A stretch of DNA of 8,958 nt from Thermodesulfobacteriota bacterium (GTDB taxonomy: Bacteria > Desulfobacterota > DSM-4660 > Desulfatiglandales > HGW-15): the NCBI GenBank assembly GCA_025454125.1, contig JALOPA010000286.1:1-8958 (forward strand). The letters run 5' to 3'. Below the pieces are notes generated by a model. That model was given only the letters and a program-made list of their open reading frames with translations. It was not told the DNA's origin and did not search any database. Position 1 is the stretch's first letter; each line of letters opens with the position of its first letter. The translations under genes were made by a program, and so were the position numbers. Shown one piece after another: positions 1 to 8,675 of this stretch.

Positions 1-960
1 ACGATCCCCCTTGCCGCGGAAGCGGTCTCCTTCAACAAGAAAATGGTGAAGGTTTCCAAGACACGGCTCGCGATGGGAAGCTTCGTTTCCATGACTCTCC
101 TTCATCCTTCCAAAGACCGGGCCGAAGAGGCCATGGACGCGGCCTTCGGCGAAATCGATCGTCTGTCCGGGCTCCTGAGCCGGTACGATCACTCCTCTGC
201 GGTTTACGACCTCAACACCCGCGGTCATCTGGCAGGCCTTCCGCCTGAAGTGGGTCAGGTGATCGCGAGTTCCCTTCACTATTACACGCTCACGGCCGGC
301 TATTTCGACGTCACCGTGAAGCCGGTGGTGGATCTGTTCCAGCAGAAGATGGGCGGCGAGAAAAAATCTGAACCCACGGATGCGGAAATCAACGACCTTC
401 TCAAGCGGGTGGACGCCCGGAACGTCGAGCTCAAAGACAAGGCCGTGTCCTTCAAAGCGGAAGGCATGGGGATCACCCTGGACGGCATTGCCGTGGGGTA
501 CATTGTGGACCGCGTGTCCGAACTGCTCCTGTCCCGGGGCATCCAGAACCATCTCCTCAATGCCAGCGGCGACATCCGCACCCGGGGCGCCAAAGAAGAC
601 GGGAAGCCCTGGACCGTGGCCATCCAGGACCCCTGGAAGCGCAAGACCTACCCGGATGTGGTTCACATGGGCGACGGCGCCATCTCCACCTCAGGGAACT
701 ACGAGATCTACTACGACCAGGAGAAAATGTTCCACCACATCGTGAATCCCAAGACGGGTCACTCCCCCGCCGCCGTGACCAGCGGCACGATTCAAGCGAA
801 CACGTGCATGGAAGCGGACGCTCTGGCCACGGCCCTTTGCGTCATGTCTCCTGCTCAGGGCACGGAGTTCGTCAACGGCCTTCCGGCCTGCCAATCCCTG
901 GTCATTGGGAAAGACGGGACTCTGTGGAAATCAAAGGGGTGGAAGAGCGCGGCCATATGA
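1..960 (+). CDS. apbE: FAD:protein FMN transferase (ApbE family), 5'-partial
   Basis: ApbE enzymes use FAD and Mg2+ to attach FMN covalently to Ser/Thr of target flavoproteins, usually outside the cytoplasmic membrane. The reading frame is open to the left window edge (it begins ...TIPLAAEAVSFNKK), so the ATG at 43 is probably internal and the true start, with any export signal, lies outside. Numbered from that ATG, the family blocks appear in order: MGS (11-13), DGIAVGY (147-153), NASGDIR (173-179, usually NAGGD), STSGNYE (215-221), HHIVNPKTG (231-239) and ADALATAL (258-265). The last supplies the conserved Asp/Thr (D259, T263) linked to Mg2+ and flavin handling. The C-terminus looks complete and ends with TGA at 958-960. 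The gene converges on hflX, and the two stop regions overlap by 59 bp. The target flavoprotein (Rnf/Nqr subunit or flavocytochrome) cannot be told from this window. Confidence 0.92.
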   Translation, partial: TIPLAAEAVSFNKKMVKVSKTRLAMGSFVSMTLLHPSKDRAEEAMDAAFGEIDRLSGLLSRYDHSSAVYDLNTRGHLAGLPPEVGQVIASSLHYYTLTAGYFDVTVKPVVDLFQQKMGGEKKSEPTDAEINDLLKRVDARNVELKDKAVSFKAEGMGITLDGIAVGYIVDRVSELLLSRGIQNHLLNASGDIRTRGAKEDGKPWTVAIQDPWKRKTYPDVVHMGDGAISTSGNYEIYYDQEKMFHHIVNPKTGHSPAAVTSGTIQANTCMEADALATALCVMSPAQGTEFVNGLPACQSLVIGKDGTLWKSKGWKSAAI

Positions 961-1921
961 GGTGCTCCATCTCCTGAAGCAGACCTGAAAAGGTCTTGGG
1001 GTTGAGAGCGGAAACCGGCACCCCCTTCAAGCTTTTCGACAAATCGACCGCCTGGACAGGATCCAGACGGTCGGTTTTGTTCAGGACGAGGACCACGGGA
1101 ATCCTTCCCAGGTCGAGCTTCCTCAGAATGTCCTCAACGGTCTTGATCTGATTCTCCATGCGCGGGCTGCTGGCATCCACCACGTGAAGGAGCAGGTCCG
1201 CATCCTGGAGTTCCTCCAGGGTGGCGGCAAAGGCTTCCATCAGGTCTTCGGGCAGGTCCCGGATAAAGCCCACGGTGTCGGTGATGATCACATTTCTTTC
1301 GCTGGGGAACCGGAGCCTCCGGCTGCTCGGGTCCAGGGTGGCAAAGAGGCGGTCTTCCACGGCCACATGGCTGCGGGTCAGAGCGTTGAGCAGGGTGGAT
1401 TTCCCCGCGTTGGTGTAGCCCACGATGGAGATCACCGGAATTCCTCTCGCGTTGCGCAGCCGGCGCCGGTCCTCCCTCTGTTGGCGAATCTGTTCGAGCT
1501 CCCGGATCAGGCGGGTGATCCGCTCCCGCACGCGCCTGCGGTTGATCTCGAGCTTGGTCTCTCCCGGCCCCCTTCCGCCGATGCCTCCTGTGAGCCGCGA
1601 CATGGCCGTGTTCTTTGTGCCGAGCCTGGGGAGAAGGTACTTGAGCTGGGCCAGTTCCACCTGGATTTTCCCTTCCCGGGTGACCGCCCTGCGCGCAAAG
1701 ATGTCCAGGATGAGCTGGCTCCGGTCAATGATCTTGAGTTCCGTGGCATCGGTAAGGCTCCGCACCTGGGCCGGAGTGAGCTCGTGATCGAAGAGGAGAA
1801 TCGTCGACCCCGTTTGAACGCACCGCAGCACCAGCTCGCTCAGTTTGCCCTTTCCGATGAGGTACCGGGAGTCCGCCTGCTTGAGGCGCTGGACCACCGT
1901 GTCCACCACCTCCACACCCAC
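902..1921 (-). CDS. hflX: GTPase HflX, GTP-binding half of a split gene
   Basis: HflX is a ribosome-associated GTPase that splits 70S ribosomes and rescues stalled ones. This frame carries the C-terminal half of the N-domain and the full G domain: GKGKLSEL (23-30), GGIGGRGPGE (112-121), a basic coiled-coil linker (about 124-157), Walker A GYTNAGKST (168-176), G3 DTVGFI (215-220), G4 NKTD (281-284) and G5 SAL (304-306). The only plausible start is GTG at 1921, without a good Shine-Dalgarno. The frame is open upstream to a TAG at 1976-1978, but those codons (ending GSGFRPC) do not look like HflX. The missing N-terminus lies in another frame at 1840-2475, so this is the 3' part of a disrupted gene. 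The last 15 or so residues run antisense into apbE. Whether a truncated protein is made is unknown. Confidence 0.88.
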   Translation of the reverse strand: MGVEVVDTVVQRLKQADSRYLIGKGKLSELVLRCVQTGSTILLFDHELTPAQVRSLTDATELKIIDRSQLILDIFARRAVTREGKIQVELAQLKYLLPRLGTKNTAMSRLTGGIGGRGPGETKLEINRRRVRERITRLIRELEQIRQQREDRRRLRNARGIPVISIVGYTNAGKSTLLNALTRSHVAVEDRLFATLDPSSRRLRFPSERNVIITDTVGFIRDLPEDLMEAFAATLEELQDADLLLHVVDASSPRMENQIKTVEDILRKLDLGRIPVVLVLNKTDRLDPVQAVDLSKSLKGVPVSALNPKTFSGLLQEMEHLIWPRSSTPLISTESRLSQ

Positions 1922-2475
1922 ACAGGGCCTGAACCCACTCCCACGAGCACAGCCCTTTCCTTTTGCCGCAGAGCCCTACCCCCTTCCCTGCTCCGCCCCA
2001 GTTCGTCCTCCAGGGACTCGATCAGCTCCTGGAAATCCGTCTGAAGCTGGCCCACGTCAGGGACCCTCTGAAGGCTCCACTTCTCGCCCCGGACGTTCTC
2101 AGGAAGGATGTGGGCATAGGCAATGGGGCCCGGCGAGCCCTCCTCTCCCACCTCCACGCTCACCATGAGGTCAAGCCCCAGAAGCACCAGGTCCGTGAGG
2201 TCCTCCCTGGACAGAGGCTCGCCGTGAAGGTGCGTGTGAAGGCATCGAAGGCCCTTGAGCCTGCCCAGGCCGAGCCTGAACCGTCCCAGATCCGGGATGA
2301 GGATGTTCCGGTCGTCGCCGACAATGACGGAAACCACCTCCCCTTTTCGGCTCACCAGGAGCGCAACCTGTCGCTGAATCTCGAAAGAAATGGAGCAGAG
2401 CTGGCGGGTCAGTTCATGGGTGATAATGTCGCGGCCGGACACGCGGCGGCGGTACAGGTTCTGGAGAAACTTCAT
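1840..2475 (-). CDS. hflX: HflX N-terminal fragment, frameshifted
   Basis: This frame reads as the N-terminal domain of the long HflX type seen in deltaproteobacteria: LYRRRV (7-12), IVGDDRNILIPDL (51-63), GLRCLHTHLHGEPLSREDLT (75-94), HILPEN (122-127), and ERAVLVGVGSGP (173-184). After residue 184 it becomes low-complexity W/R/S-rich sequence and stops at TGA 1840-1842, while genuine HflX sequence resumes in another frame at about 1921. In complete relatives I would expect about 18 residues between the VGVGSGP-like and GVEVVD-like blocks, and here they nearly touch. A deletion of about 50 bp that shifts the frame explains this. ATG 2475 is the only usable start. The codons just before it (VYGKTGGLKASQ, stop TGA further up) resemble the usual HflX N-terminus but contain no ATG, GTG or TTG. 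Confidence 0.82.
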   Translation of the reverse strand: MKFLQNLYRRRVSGRDIITHELTRQLCSISFEIQRQVALLVSRKGEVVSVIVGDDRNILIPDLGRFRLGLGRLKGLRCLHTHLHGEPLSREDLTDLVLLGLDLMVSVEVGEEGSPGPIAYAHILPENVRGEKWSLQRVPDVGQLQTDFQELIESLEDELGRSREGGRALRQKERAVLVGVGSGPVWVWRWWTRWSSASSRRTPGTSSERAN

Positions 2476-2540
2476 TTGGCTGGCCTTCAGGCCGCCTGTT
2501 TTGCCGTAAACTCTATCGATATCTCAAACCTCAAAAAAAG

Positions 2541-2689
2541 AAGGTGAAAGGTGCGAGGTATAAGGTACAAGGTACAAGGTATAAGGTGCAAGGTATAAGG
2601 TGCAAGGTATAAGGTAAAAAGGATACGATCACCCTGGACCCTAGACCTTGCACCTTGAACCTTGTACCTTATACCTTGCACCTTATACC
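2541..2689. repeat. Inverted array of 7-bp repeats (AAGGTRY)
   Basis: Eleven consecutive 7-mers of the form AAGGTRY (aaggtgc, aaggtat, aaggtac and close variants) run from 2541 to 2617. After a 14-base spacer, eight units of the reverse complement (CCTTRYA, the outermost two degenerate) run from 2632 to 2687. The best-pairing part is a perfect 24-bp inverted repeat, 2578-2601 with 2666-2689. The array lies between the end of dnaB and the start of hflX, both on the minus strand. Transcribed, it would fold into a long hairpin that could attenuate or terminate readthrough. Translations in these frames (YKVQG repeats) are spurious. The intergenic space 2476-2740 holds nothing else that I recognise. 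Confidence 0.93.
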
Positions 2690-2740
2690 GTTCATAAATG
2701 CTCGCTAACGGGAAAGAGACCATTCATCCACCGAGATCGT

Positions 2741-4117
2741 TTAAGCGCTCCCATACCCCTCCCCTTCTTCTGCATAGTCCCTGAACCGAGTCAGTTCCTT
2801 CTGGAAGGTCATCCTGAACGAGCCGGTGGGCCCATTTCGCTGTTTGGCGATGATGATTTCCGCCAGGTTCCGGTTCTCATCCGAGACCGGGTGGTAGAGT
2901 TCGTCGCGGTAGATGAAGGCGATCACGTCGGCGTCCTGCTCAATGGCGCCGCTTTCCCTGAGATCGGCCAGCTGCGGTCTCTTGTTCGGCCTGTCCTCCA
3001 CTTTTCTGTTCAACTGGGACAGGGCCATGACCGGCACCTTCAAATCCTTGGCCAGGGCTTTGAGGGCACGGGAGATCTCCGAGATCTCCATCTGACGCGA
3101 TTCGGCGTTTCGCCGGCCCTGCATGAGCTGGAGATAGTCGATGATCACCAGGGCCAGTTCACGCTTCTTCATGAGGCGACGGCACTTCGCCTTCATCTCG
3201 AGGGCGCTCAGGTTGGACGTGTCGTCGATGAACACCGGAAGTTCCGAGAGCTGGTTGGCGGACTCCGTCAACTTGTGCCAGTCCGAGTCCCTGAGAAATC
3301 CCGTTCTGAGCTTGGTCGCGTCGATCCCCGAGTGAAACCCCAGGAGTCTCATGCCGAGCTGCATTTTGGCCATTTCGAGAGAAAAGACCACCACGCCCTT
3401 GCGCGTTTCGATTGCCGCGTTGTAGCCGATGTTGAGGGCCAGGGCCGTTTTCCCTGTGCTCGGCCTGCCCGCCAGGATGATGAGATCCGAGGGCTGCAAG
3501 CCGGCGGTGTAGCGGTCCAGGTCCCGGAAGCCCGTGGGCACTCCTGTGACAAATCCCTCGTGCTCCGCCACGCTTTCGAGCTTCTTGAAACTCTCCTTGA
3601 TCACCTCCTCCAGGCTGGAGAAGGTCTCGCCGATCTTGTCCTCCGCAATGTCGAAGATCGACTGCTCCGCCATCTCCAGGAGCTCCTCCGTGGGTTCCCA
3701 GCTCTGAAAGCACGCCTCGGAGATGACCGAGCACTGGCTGATGAGTTTTCTTCTGACTGAAAGATCCCGGACGATTTGGGCGTGGAAGAGAATTCCGGCG
3801 GAGGTGGAGACCGCCTCGGCCAGGGAAGCCAGATACTCCATGCCTCCGGCCTTTTCCAGAAGCCCTTTTGTCTTCAGGAACTGGGGGAGGGTGATGAGGT
3901 CGATGGGTTCATTGCCGTTGTAGAGCTCGACCATGCCTTCATAAAGGCAGGCATGCCCTTCCCGATAGAAGTCTTCCGGCGACAGGATGTCCACGATCTG
4001 GTTGAGGGCGTCATTGTTGATCAGGACCCCTGCCAGGATCGTCTGTTCCGCCTCCACGTTTTGGGGAGGGATTTTGAGGGGACTGGGAGGTCCCTTTTCT
4101 TTGGCCTGCTGAGGCAC
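2741..4117 (-). CDS. dnaB: Replicative DNA helicase DnaB
   Basis: DnaB is the hexameric 5'-3' helicase that unwinds DNA at the replication fork and recruits primase. At 458 aa the length is typical. The N-terminal helical domain (about 18-115, starting PPQNVEAEQTILAG) is followed by a linker and the RecA-like ATPase domain (about 185-450): Walker A GRPSTGKT (217-224), Walker B VIIDYLQLM (324-332), LSQLNR (366-371), DLRESGAIEQDAD (385-397) and KQRNGPTG (425-432). The Walker A has Thr where RPSMGKT is usual. The start is GTG at 4117, with AGAGG six bases upstream. The gene begins 29 bases after the L9 stop, so it is probably the last gene of the rpsF-rpsR-rplI operon, a common arrangement. No simple terminator follows, and the repeat array at 2541-2689 lies downstream. 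Confidence 0.97.
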   Translation of the reverse strand: MPQQAKEKGPPSPLKIPPQNVEAEQTILAGVLINNDALNQIVDILSPEDFYREGHACLYEGMVELYNGNEPIDLITLPQFLKTKGLLEKAGGMEYLASLAEAVSTSAGILFHAQIVRDLSVRRKLISQCSVISEACFQSWEPTEELLEMAEQSIFDIAEDKIGETFSSLEEVIKESFKKLESVAEHEGFVTGVPTGFRDLDRYTAGLQPSDLIILAGRPSTGKTALALNIGYNAAIETRKGVVVFSLEMAKMQLGMRLLGFHSGIDATKLRTGFLRDSDWHKLTESANQLSELPVFIDDTSNLSALEMKAKCRRLMKKRELALVIIDYLQLMQGRRNAESRQMEISEISRALKALAKDLKVPVMALSQLNRKVEDRPNKRPQLADLRESGAIEQDADVIAFIYRDELYHPVSDENRNLAEIIIAKQRNGPTGSFRMTFQKELTRFRDYAEEGEGYGSA

Positions 4118-4146: not shown

Positions 4147-5457
4147 TTAGGCTTCCGGAACCACGCTGACCTTGAGGGATGCCGTCACCTCAGGATGAAG
4201 CTTCACCGCCACGGCGAACTCCCCGAGGCTCTTGATGGGTTTGTCCAGGATGATCCTTCTTCGCTCCACCGCGATTCCCTGCTTCTCGAGCTGATCGGCG
4301 ATGTCCATGCTCGTGACAGACCCGTAGAGCTTTTCTTCTTCGCCCACTTTCTGCGCGATGGTGACCGAGACTTCGGAGAGCCTCTCTTTGAGCTTCAAGG
4401 CGTCTTCTTTGACCTTGACCCGCTTGATCTCGATGTTCTTCCTCTGAGTCTCCGTGAGCTTGATGTTCTTGTCTGTGGCTTCGAGGGCCATGCCGCGGGG
4501 AATGAGATAGTTTCTTGCATACCCCTTGGCCACATTGACGATCTCGTGATCAAACAACCCGGCCAGGGTCACCCCGATCACGAGAAACTGCTGAAGCAGG
4601 ATGAGCGCATAGACGCCGGACCTCATCCACGGGGGCACTCGGTACTTGTTCAAATAGAACAAAAGGATCGACAGGCCGTGAAAAAAATAGATGGCCAGCA
4701 GGATCACCAGGACATTGACGGCCACCAATCTTAAAGGAGAAAAAGACAAAAATAAAGAAAAACCGGCAGCGATCAGCCCCCAGACCATGAGTTCGGAGCT
4801 CTGCCACCGGTCGAGCGCGCCGTACTCGGGAAGCTCCAGTTTCCCTCTGCGAAAAAGGGGCCGGCTCACGATCACGTTCAACCAGACCACAAAGGCGCTC
4901 CCCACCGCCATGAGCGAAGGGTAGATCAAGGAAACCCCTTGCTTCAGGGCTTTGAGGTATTCCTGGAATTCGACGGCTCTCTCAGGGTCCGCACCCGCCT
5001 GGGCGTAAATCCGGGCGGTCGTCTCCAGGCTCTCCAGCAAAAAGGCCCGGACCATTTCCAGGGGTCCCACGTTGTTTCTCAGCCCGGCCACGGCCAGCGC
5101 CAGGATCCCGATCAGGAGCAGAAAGCACGCGCCCAGCAGCACCGTGCTGCCGATCGGCACCTTTCTTCTGTAGATCTCCGACAAGATCAAGCCGAGCACG
5201 CTGAACTCAAGGCCTAGGAACAGGAGCTGAGCCTGTCGGGTGATCGCCGCCGTCAAGCCTGCAGCGAGGATGCTCATGCACGCGAGCTTCACCGCTTCGG
5301 AGAGGCCGAGCTTGGCGGAATAGTAGAGAAAGGGCAGAGGGGTGAGCAAGCTGAGGAATGGACCCACAACGGGAATCCACACAGAGGCGAGAAGCAGCGC
5401 CAACGCTGTTCCCACACACCCCAGGACCTGGTGCGCTTTCATCGGTTCTTCGGACAC
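4147..5457 (-). CDS. YybS-family (DUF2232) membrane protein fused to ribosomal protein L9
   Basis: Residues 1 to about 303 are a polytopic membrane protein of the YybS/DUF2232 type, with hydrophobic segments near 11-45 (two), 57-72, 78-96, 104-125, 174-195, 223-242, 242-270 and 281-301. Its function is unknown. Without any stop the chain continues as ribosomal protein L9 from EIVNVAKGYARNYLIPRG (305-322), through the long helix (323-360), to the C-terminal rRNA-binding domain (GEEEKLYGSVTS, KSLGEFAVAVKLHPEV), ending at 436. Normal L9 has about 148 residues and starts with a MKVILxEDVxxLGKKG-like stretch. Those 16 or so residues and the end of DUF2232 are absent, and only 132 L9 residues remain. 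Relatives carry two adjacent genes, so this looks like an in-frame deletion fusion. The start is GTG 5457 with AGAGGG five bases before it; ATG 5442 is the alternative. Confidence 0.9.
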   Translation of the reverse strand: MSEEPMKAHQVLGCVGTALALLLASVWIPVVGPFLSLLTPLPFLYYSAKLGLSEAVKLACMSILAAGLTAAITRQAQLLFLGLEFSVLGLILSEIYRRKVPIGSTVLLGACFLLLIGILALAVAGLRNNVGPLEMVRAFLLESLETTARIYAQAGADPERAVEFQEYLKALKQGVSLIYPSLMAVGSAFVVWLNVIVSRPLFRRGKLELPEYGALDRWQSSELMVWGLIAAGFSLFLSFSPLRLVAVNVLVILLAIYFFHGLSILLFYLNKYRVPPWMRSGVYALILLQQFLVIGVTLAGLFDHEIVNVAKGYARNYLIPRGMALEATDKNIKLTETQRKNIEIKRVKVKEDALKLKERLSEVSVTIAQKVGEEEKLYGSVTSMDIADQLEKQGIAVERRRIILDKPIKSLGEFAVAVKLHPEVTASLKVSVVPEA

Positions 5458-5516: not shown

Positions 5517-5765
5517 TCACTTGACCGTAGCCGTGGTGTAGGGCAGAAGGGCGATGTTGCGAGCCCTCTTGATGGCCATGGTGATCATCCTCTGATGCTT
5601 GGCGCAGTTCCCGGAAATCCGGCGGGGGATGATCTTGCCGCGCTCTGTCGTGAACAACCTCAGGGTCCTTGGGTCCTTATAGTCAATCACCAGGCTGCTG
5701 TCCGCGCAGTAGCGGCAAACTTTTCGCCTGTGATAGGGCATTTTGCGTCGGCCTTTATCCATCAT
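5517..5765 (-). CDS. rpsR: 30S ribosomal protein S18
   Basis: S18 sits on the platform of the small ribosomal subunit as a partner of S6. The protein (82 aa from ATG 5765) shows the full family pattern: [37 protein letters not shown] and [13 protein letters not shown]. The CRYC pair plus the Cys of NCAKHQ suggest the cysteine-containing, zinc-ribbon-like form. Start choice: GAGG at 5778-5775 is nine bases before ATG 5765. GTG 5771 is too close to it, and ATG 5762 is possible. The start overlaps the end of rpsF (stop TAA 5757-5755) by about 11 bases, so translation is likely coupled. The yybS-rplI fusion begins 59 bases downstream. Confidence 0.97.
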
Positions 5766-6186
5766 GGTCACTCACCTCTTTCTCGGGTTGGTTTCCCTGA
5801 TCCTGAACGGCAGTTTCGGTCTGGGCGGGCGCTTCCGGCTCCGCGGCAGGCTCTTTCCTCTTCTCCTTCTCTTTCAGGACCAGTTCCTGGGGATCAACGT
5901 CCTCGGCAATCTTGACCGTCTGGAACCGGAAAATCCGGTCGTCCAGTTTGAGATCCCTCTCCAGCTCGGACGTGACACCCGACGGACCACAGTAATTCAT
6001 GAGCACAAAGGAACCCTTGTCAAACCTCTTGACGGCGTGGGCAAGGCGCTGAACTCCCCACTCCTCAATCCGGATGAGGACTCCCTTCTGCTTCTCCACC
6101 AGGGTACTGTACTTCCTGAGCACTTCTTTGTGCTCCTCTTCCCCCAGGGTCGGGTTGATGACAAAAATGGTTTCGTAGTTTCTCAT
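5755..6186 (-). CDS. rpsF: 30S ribosomal protein S6
   Basis: S6 binds S18 and the central domain of 16S rRNA. The sequence starts [19 protein letters not shown] and includes [39 protein letters not shown] and then an extended tail. The tail (about 107-143) is rich in Glu, Pro and Gln and is longer than the compact S6 core of about 95-100 residues. Such disordered acidic tails vary among bacteria. The start ATG 6186 has a strong Shine-Dalgarno (GGAGAAGGA) just upstream. This is the first gene of the rpsF-rpsR-yybS/rplI-dnaB unit, driven by the promoter at 6294-6322 and preceded by a leader of about 100 bases. No ssb gene lies between rpsF and rpsR. Confidence 0.97.
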
Positions 6187-8571: not shown

Positions 8572-8580
8572 GTCGTTTCG

Positions 8581-8662
8581 CTCGTCACTCGTTACTTGTC
8601 ATTTATGCGCCTCTGGCGCACTTGTCACTCGTCACTTCTCTTCCGTCACTCGTCACTCTTCC
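8581..8662. repeat. 7-bp repeat array (CTCGTCA) with central hairpin
   Basis: Units of CTCGTCA and variants are laid in a 7-base register at 8581, 8588 and 8595, then 8621, 8628, 8635, 8642, 8649 and 8656. The two blocks are separated by TTTA and a perfect 6-bp hairpin, TGCGCC-TCT-GGCGCA (8606-8620). On the minus strand the unit reads TGACGAG and occupies the 5' leader of the RNase Z-like gene. The unit is unrelated in sequence to the array at 2541-2689 but has the same period. Confidence 0.88.
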
Positions 8663-8675
8663 GCACATAAGTTCA

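Follow-up and report, generated by a model that had tools for sequence, protein, structure and literature searches.

An apparent in-frame fusion of yybS to rplI: most likely a scar left by sequencing or assembly, or a damaged gene, and not a novel fusion protein

Does a single reading frame in which the membrane protein YybS runs directly into ribosomal protein bL9 encode a genuine fusion, or has the DNA between two neighboring genes been lost? The question is raised by the 8,958-nucleotide stretch of DNA analyzed here (the window), where the genes around the join lie in the order rpsF, rpsR, yybS, rplI, dnaB and then hflX. The first-pass annotation had described an in-frame passage from YybS into an N-terminally truncated L9, uninterrupted by a stop and with its junction near 4543-4551. 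Such a frame is indeed present. The last yybS bases, TTTGATCA, are followed by CGAGATC of rplI, which places the join at 4547|4546 in plus-strand numbering, within the claimed interval. The features concerned are these.

4147-5457, minus strand: fused yybS-rplI open reading frame of 436 aa, stop-free inside
4547..5457, minus strand: yybS, encoding a DUF2232 membrane protein, without its last 20 or so residues and without a stop (from PF09991 and the database protein P0001)
4147..4546, minus strand: rplI, encoding bL9 from E17 onward, without codons 1-16 and without a start (from PF01281 and PF03948)
4546..4547, minus strand: deletion join, with an estimated ~105-135 nt absent compared with relatives

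The YybS portion is nearly whole. Its DUF2232 match (PF09991) spans residues 19-303 of the reading frame and positions 4-289 of the 290-position profile (E 3.2e-52), and its score of 178 bits against a cut-off of 27.8 is that of a full-length domain. There are two candidate yybS starts: a GTG at 5457, the place that matches the start of P0001, and an ATG at 5442, from which the protein begins MKAH as it does in 4 of the 10 relatives listed. The L9 portion is intact at its C-terminal end, where L9_C (PF03948) matches residues 352-433 over profile positions 2-85 of 86 with 102 bits. In contrast, L9_N (PF01281) is matched only from profile position 17 (residues 305-333), so a complete rRNA-binding N-domain with a start of its own is lacking. 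Compared with bL9 as known from PDB 1div and ribosome structures, the window retains the C-domain, the linker and most of the N-domain and lacks residues 1-16, which in L9 structures contribute the first strand and loop to the rRNA-binding domain. The earlier account had both these residues and the end of DUF2232 missing. The former are gone, but the DUF2232 domain is essentially complete and the loss on the YybS side is that of its hydrophilic tail (20 residues in P0001). What the window lacks is thus this C-terminal tail, the yybS stop, the intergenic stretch and L9 codons 1-16. An AlphaFold2 model of the fusion, built from a mixed 36-row alignment, was of poor quality (mean pLDDT 67, pTM 0.34) and speaks neither way.

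The corresponding region in relatives shows what would normally lie at the join. In the source searches, the class of the Deltaproteobacteria MAG G001 gave matches to the fused reading frame in 78 of its 85 genomes, and the phylum of G001 gave matches to YybS in 202 of 395; of these, 34 loci (L003, L004, L007-L034 and L041-L044) were read as DNA, their YybS being only 40-57% identical. All 34 genomes have separate yybS and rplI genes, as the first-pass annotation had expected from knowledge of the family, with a yybS stop of TAA, TAG or TGA, a spacer of 15-186 nt and an rplI start that is ATG in 32 and GTG in 2. The distance from the FD codons of yybS to rplI codon 17 is 108-288 nt in these loci (median 117), as opposed to 3 nt in the window, and a YybS tail beginning QW is found in all 34 and in P0001, but not in the window. 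P0001 is the nearest protein, its YybS being 98% identical over 70% of the reading frame, and it ends with GLFD followed by 20 more residues of a normal YybS tail. Full-length L9 relatives start with MKVxLxQDMESLG or a similar sequence. From the tail of P0001 and the spacing in relatives, we estimate that a segment of ~105-135 nt is absent, in keeping with the earlier suggestion that about 100 bp had been lost; the DUF2232 stop and intact L9 start that were to speak against a fusion are present, as far as relatives go. Two Deltaproteobacteria MAGs (L001 and L002) share the order, orientation and neighbors of the rpsF-rpsR-yybS-rplI-dnaB cluster with the window, which differs from clusters of this type in having no yybS stop, no spacer and no ATG or GTG start for rplI. 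Large open-frame lengths in relatives, such as 481 aa in G001, resemble fusions, yet every one of the 34 loci read has an intervening stop. Stop read-through or another genetic code is a needless explanation, given that the yybS stops in these loci are followed by an ordinary rplI start.

Searches for the same architecture elsewhere gave no support to a real or functional fusion. A protein search seeded with the L9 part, which sees only proteins with short exact words in common with the query, produced 5 matches from 601 candidates of 240-763 aa. None is a DUF2232-L9 fusion; four are L9 proteins extended at one end, and the fifth joins L9 to DnaB. With the entire reading frame as query, the best 120 of 295 matches likewise contained no fusion, only DUF2232 proteins of 257-367 aa. 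In independent genomes, therefore, the architecture was seen in 0 of 5 protein matches (601 candidates) and 0 of 34 DNA loci. Viral contigs had no match to P0001, and tblastn against plasmids returned 53 records, all below 60% identity, the best 20 of which align at most from query residue 264 onward, over the end of YybS and the L9 part. YybS is not named in the literature matches listed for L9, rplI and YybS. The L9-DnaB join, P0241, is a 293-aa database protein in which L9 is joined to the product of the next gene of the operon; like the window it has two neighbors of the same operon run together, although the partner is DnaB and not YybS. PDB entries 4wpo and 4w2e, in which L9 is fused to EF-G and EF4 and which are engineered, also join L9 to another protein. 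They match L9 residues 1-73 or 1-75 and so keep the N-domain and place it first, while in the window the N-domain is cut and C-terminal.

An L9 protein search gave 7999 matches, the best 120 of which are mostly 148 aa long. The closest L9 proteins by identity among the matches listed (93-94%) are P0121 (rank 1, 131 aa) and P0123 (rank 3, 128 aa), both N-terminally truncated and starting within a few residues of the join in the window. They come from contigs of 1822 and 1484 nt, and their truncation was likely caused by contig edges. A shared deletion is less likely, yet the coincidence is the main hint that something real could have happened at the join.

Features of the DNA at the join suggest how the segment may have been lost. 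The join is spanned by one arm of a perfect inverted repeat, identified by repeat search.

4542..4551: arm of a perfect 10-nt inverted repeat, spanning the join
4576..4585: other arm, 24 nt from the first and within the sequence for the last YybS membrane helix

When deletions of 90-139 nt were placed at random, 20 of 40,000 in the window produced a spanning inverted repeat and 11 of 28,000 in 28 relative loci produced one of the same kind; these odds are flattering because the repeat was noticed after the fact. Its position suggests template switching by a polymerase. The growing strand may have folded back at GATCA, copied a few bases and resumed in rplI, events that can take place in the cell or in the tube. 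Slippage between direct repeats was considered and discarded, as the one direct-repeat family in 4400-4700 lies away from the join. Judging from the codons of relatives, direct microhomology of the type needed for a k-mer graph error is probably missing at the join. MDA is weakened as a cause because same-strand joins of less than 10 kb made up only 11 of 475 chimeras according to the available part of PMC1855051.

The join is not the only lesion in the window. About 2.6 kb away, hflX is split by a second deletion, and the state of the neighboring genes is as follows.

902..2520, minus strand: hflX, split by the second lesion, with a probable start at ATC 2518-2520 (from reading frames, Pfam and alignment to relatives)
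1914..1921, minus strand: second lesion, a join inside hflX with 49 nt missing and the frame shifted (from motif spacing)
2741..4117, minus strand: dnaB, no lesion seen, 78-81% identical and gapless over 448 aa to L001 and L002
5517..5771, minus strand: rpsR (S18), no lesion seen, aligning to L001 with 0 gaps and to L002 with 1
5755..6186, minus strand: rpsF (S6), domain complete (Pfam profile 1-90 of 90), aligning to L001 with 3 gaps and to L002 with 14

The block of hflX between GPVW and VEVVD is gone. Fifteen loci were tried for motif spacing, of which L053, L055 and L059 were unmatched; the distance from the RAVLVGV-type to the GKGK-type motif is 50 aa (150 nt) in all 12 relatives with both motifs versus 101 nt in the window, and the figure of 49 nt rests on this shorter interval. 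The longer one, from VPDxG to GKGK, measures 209 nt in the window, as opposed to 85 residues in 8 loci and 87 in L054. No inverted repeat spans the hflX join (five offsets, arms of 7-10 nt), and a fold-back common to both lesions is accordingly unsupported. The IMPase and MBL genes align over equal lengths in the genomes that gave a strong match, 8 of 10 for each gene. The contig thus seems to contain two discrete deletions rather than to be of generally poor quality. The window also has repeats of other kinds. Between hflX and dnaB (2548-2689) there are arrays of a 7/14-bp unit (AAGGTATAAGGTGC) with an inverted copy, which fold as RNA into one long hairpin of 201 nt (2520-2720, minus strand; -98.4 kcal/mol, z -13.6), and short repeated GTCACTCGTCACT-type units were seen by eye at 8575-8670, upstream of the MBL-fold gene.

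These observations are most likely explained by damage, either a scar from sequencing or assembly or a disrupted gene, and not by a novel fusion protein. More specifically, with a probability that we put at about 0.58, library preparation or assembly left a local deletion scar that looks like a fusion: ~105-135 nt comprising the end and stop of yybS, the spacer and rplI codons 1-16 would have been lost, most likely during DNA copying or read assembly, and the deletion in hflX on the same contig would fit a local quality problem. This reading is favored because a stop and a start lie between the same two points in all 34 relatives, because the 98%-identical P0001 has a full YybS tail, because no DUF2232-L9 protein appeared among the matches listed from either protein search, because hflX carries a second deletion while dnaB and S18 show no lesion and the IMPase and MBL genes align over equal lengths where the match is strong, and because of the inverted repeat across the join. 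The technical origin of the loss is something we infer, and it is disfavored by the apparent lack of direct microhomology, by the different signatures of the two lesions, only one of which has an inverted repeat, and by the start of P0121 and P0123 near the same point. These two proteins would agree better with a real deletion in the organism, a reading that we rank second, in which the allele has lost its function and the cell survives with ribosomes that lack L9. The allele would encode a membrane-bound YybS extended by an L9 whose rRNA-binding domain is missing its first strand. Joins at inverted repeats are also known from living cells, and a cell could plausibly do without either of the two broken genes, rplI and hflX, while no lesion is seen in dnaB and S18. 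L9 itself is described as dispensable in the available text of PMC3335287, where E. coli survives truncation or deletion of the gene and a T. thermophilus L9 ending at residue 55 is not found in the ribosome. Against such an allele stand the intact yybS side of P0001 and the need for a decaying genome to account for two unrelated lesions in ~9 kb.

It is highly improbable that the fusion is functional, with YybS holding an altered L9 at the cytoplasmic side of the membrane. In its favor, no stop interrupts the frame, the C-domain of L9 is whole, and the tail of P0001 YybS is rich in positive charge, so the C-terminus of YybS is probably cytoplasmic. However, the gap between the FD codons of yybS and rplI codon 17 is a multiple of three in 14 of the 34 relatives, so an open frame is expected in about one-third of random losses. 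The absence of any relative with the fusion among the 5 matches of the protein search (601 candidates) and the presence of a second lesion nearby led us to reject this explanation, and the L9 involved lacks residues 1-16. We give equally little credence to an expressed fusion that places a trimmed L9 at the membrane face and is perhaps common to the lineage from which P0121 and P0123 come. Were the sequence real, L9 would far more probably have lost its function than gained a new one.

The start of hflX raised a separate point. The conserved N-terminus of HflX in the window begins at the isoleucine codon ATC (2518-2520, minus strand), and the short interval back to the preceding in-frame stop contains no ATG, GTG or TTG. 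We aligned 131 hflX loci, the window included (55 plus 76 of 80, from L045-L059, L095-L148 and L150-L229 with duplicates removed). They are the best class and phylum search matches in rank order and not a random sample, and all except the window are from the phylum of G001, probably Desulfobacterota; edge or near-edge rows G247 and G246 were skipped, and L178, L190, L192 and L217 (motif not found), L149 (N-terminus unaligned) and duplicates were dropped. At the start column, 99 of the 131 have AUH (AUC in 48, AUA in 26 and AUU in 25), while 15 have a canonical codon (10 ATG, 3 GTG, 2 TTG), 4 have ATG one codon earlier and 13 have another codon. No canonical start lies upstream in frame in 83 of the 99 AUH loci; a stop was seen in 81 of these, and in the other 2 (L161 and L203) the sequence read ended before any stop. 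The remaining 16 have an in-frame canonical codon upstream and may start there. A Shine-Dalgarno match of at least 4 nt precedes 93 of the 99 AUH loci compared with 6 of the 15 canonical ones. By comparison, all 34 rplI genes of relatives start with ATG or GTG.

Because AUH and AUG switch at one and the same column, this column is probably the hflX start, and as judged from the alignment hflX appears to begin at a conserved non-AUG codon, AUC, AUA or AUU. IF3 rejects start codons of the AUA, AUC and AUU type. We offer only as a hypothesis that IF3 would restrain HflX, a ribosome-splitting factor, and that HflX would rise when IF3 is short; the IF3-sensitive control of infC is a possible likeness for this ribosome-splitting GTPase. 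Both infC and pcnB are known to start at AUU, and the same has been proposed for lepA in two species, according to the available part of PMC1780047. The accessible portions of the literature on hflX start codons, non-AUG initiation and IF3 yielded no report of a non-AUG hflX start.

The outcome keeps a false membrane-ribosome fusion out of the annotation and illustrates that two small deletions in one contig can mimic a gene fusion and a split gene. Should the deletion be real, it would provide a natural case of a bacterium living without L9; an expressed fusion, if true, would be a natural way to remove L9 from the ribosome or to anchor it. The pattern of non-AUG starts in hflX matters more than the fusion.
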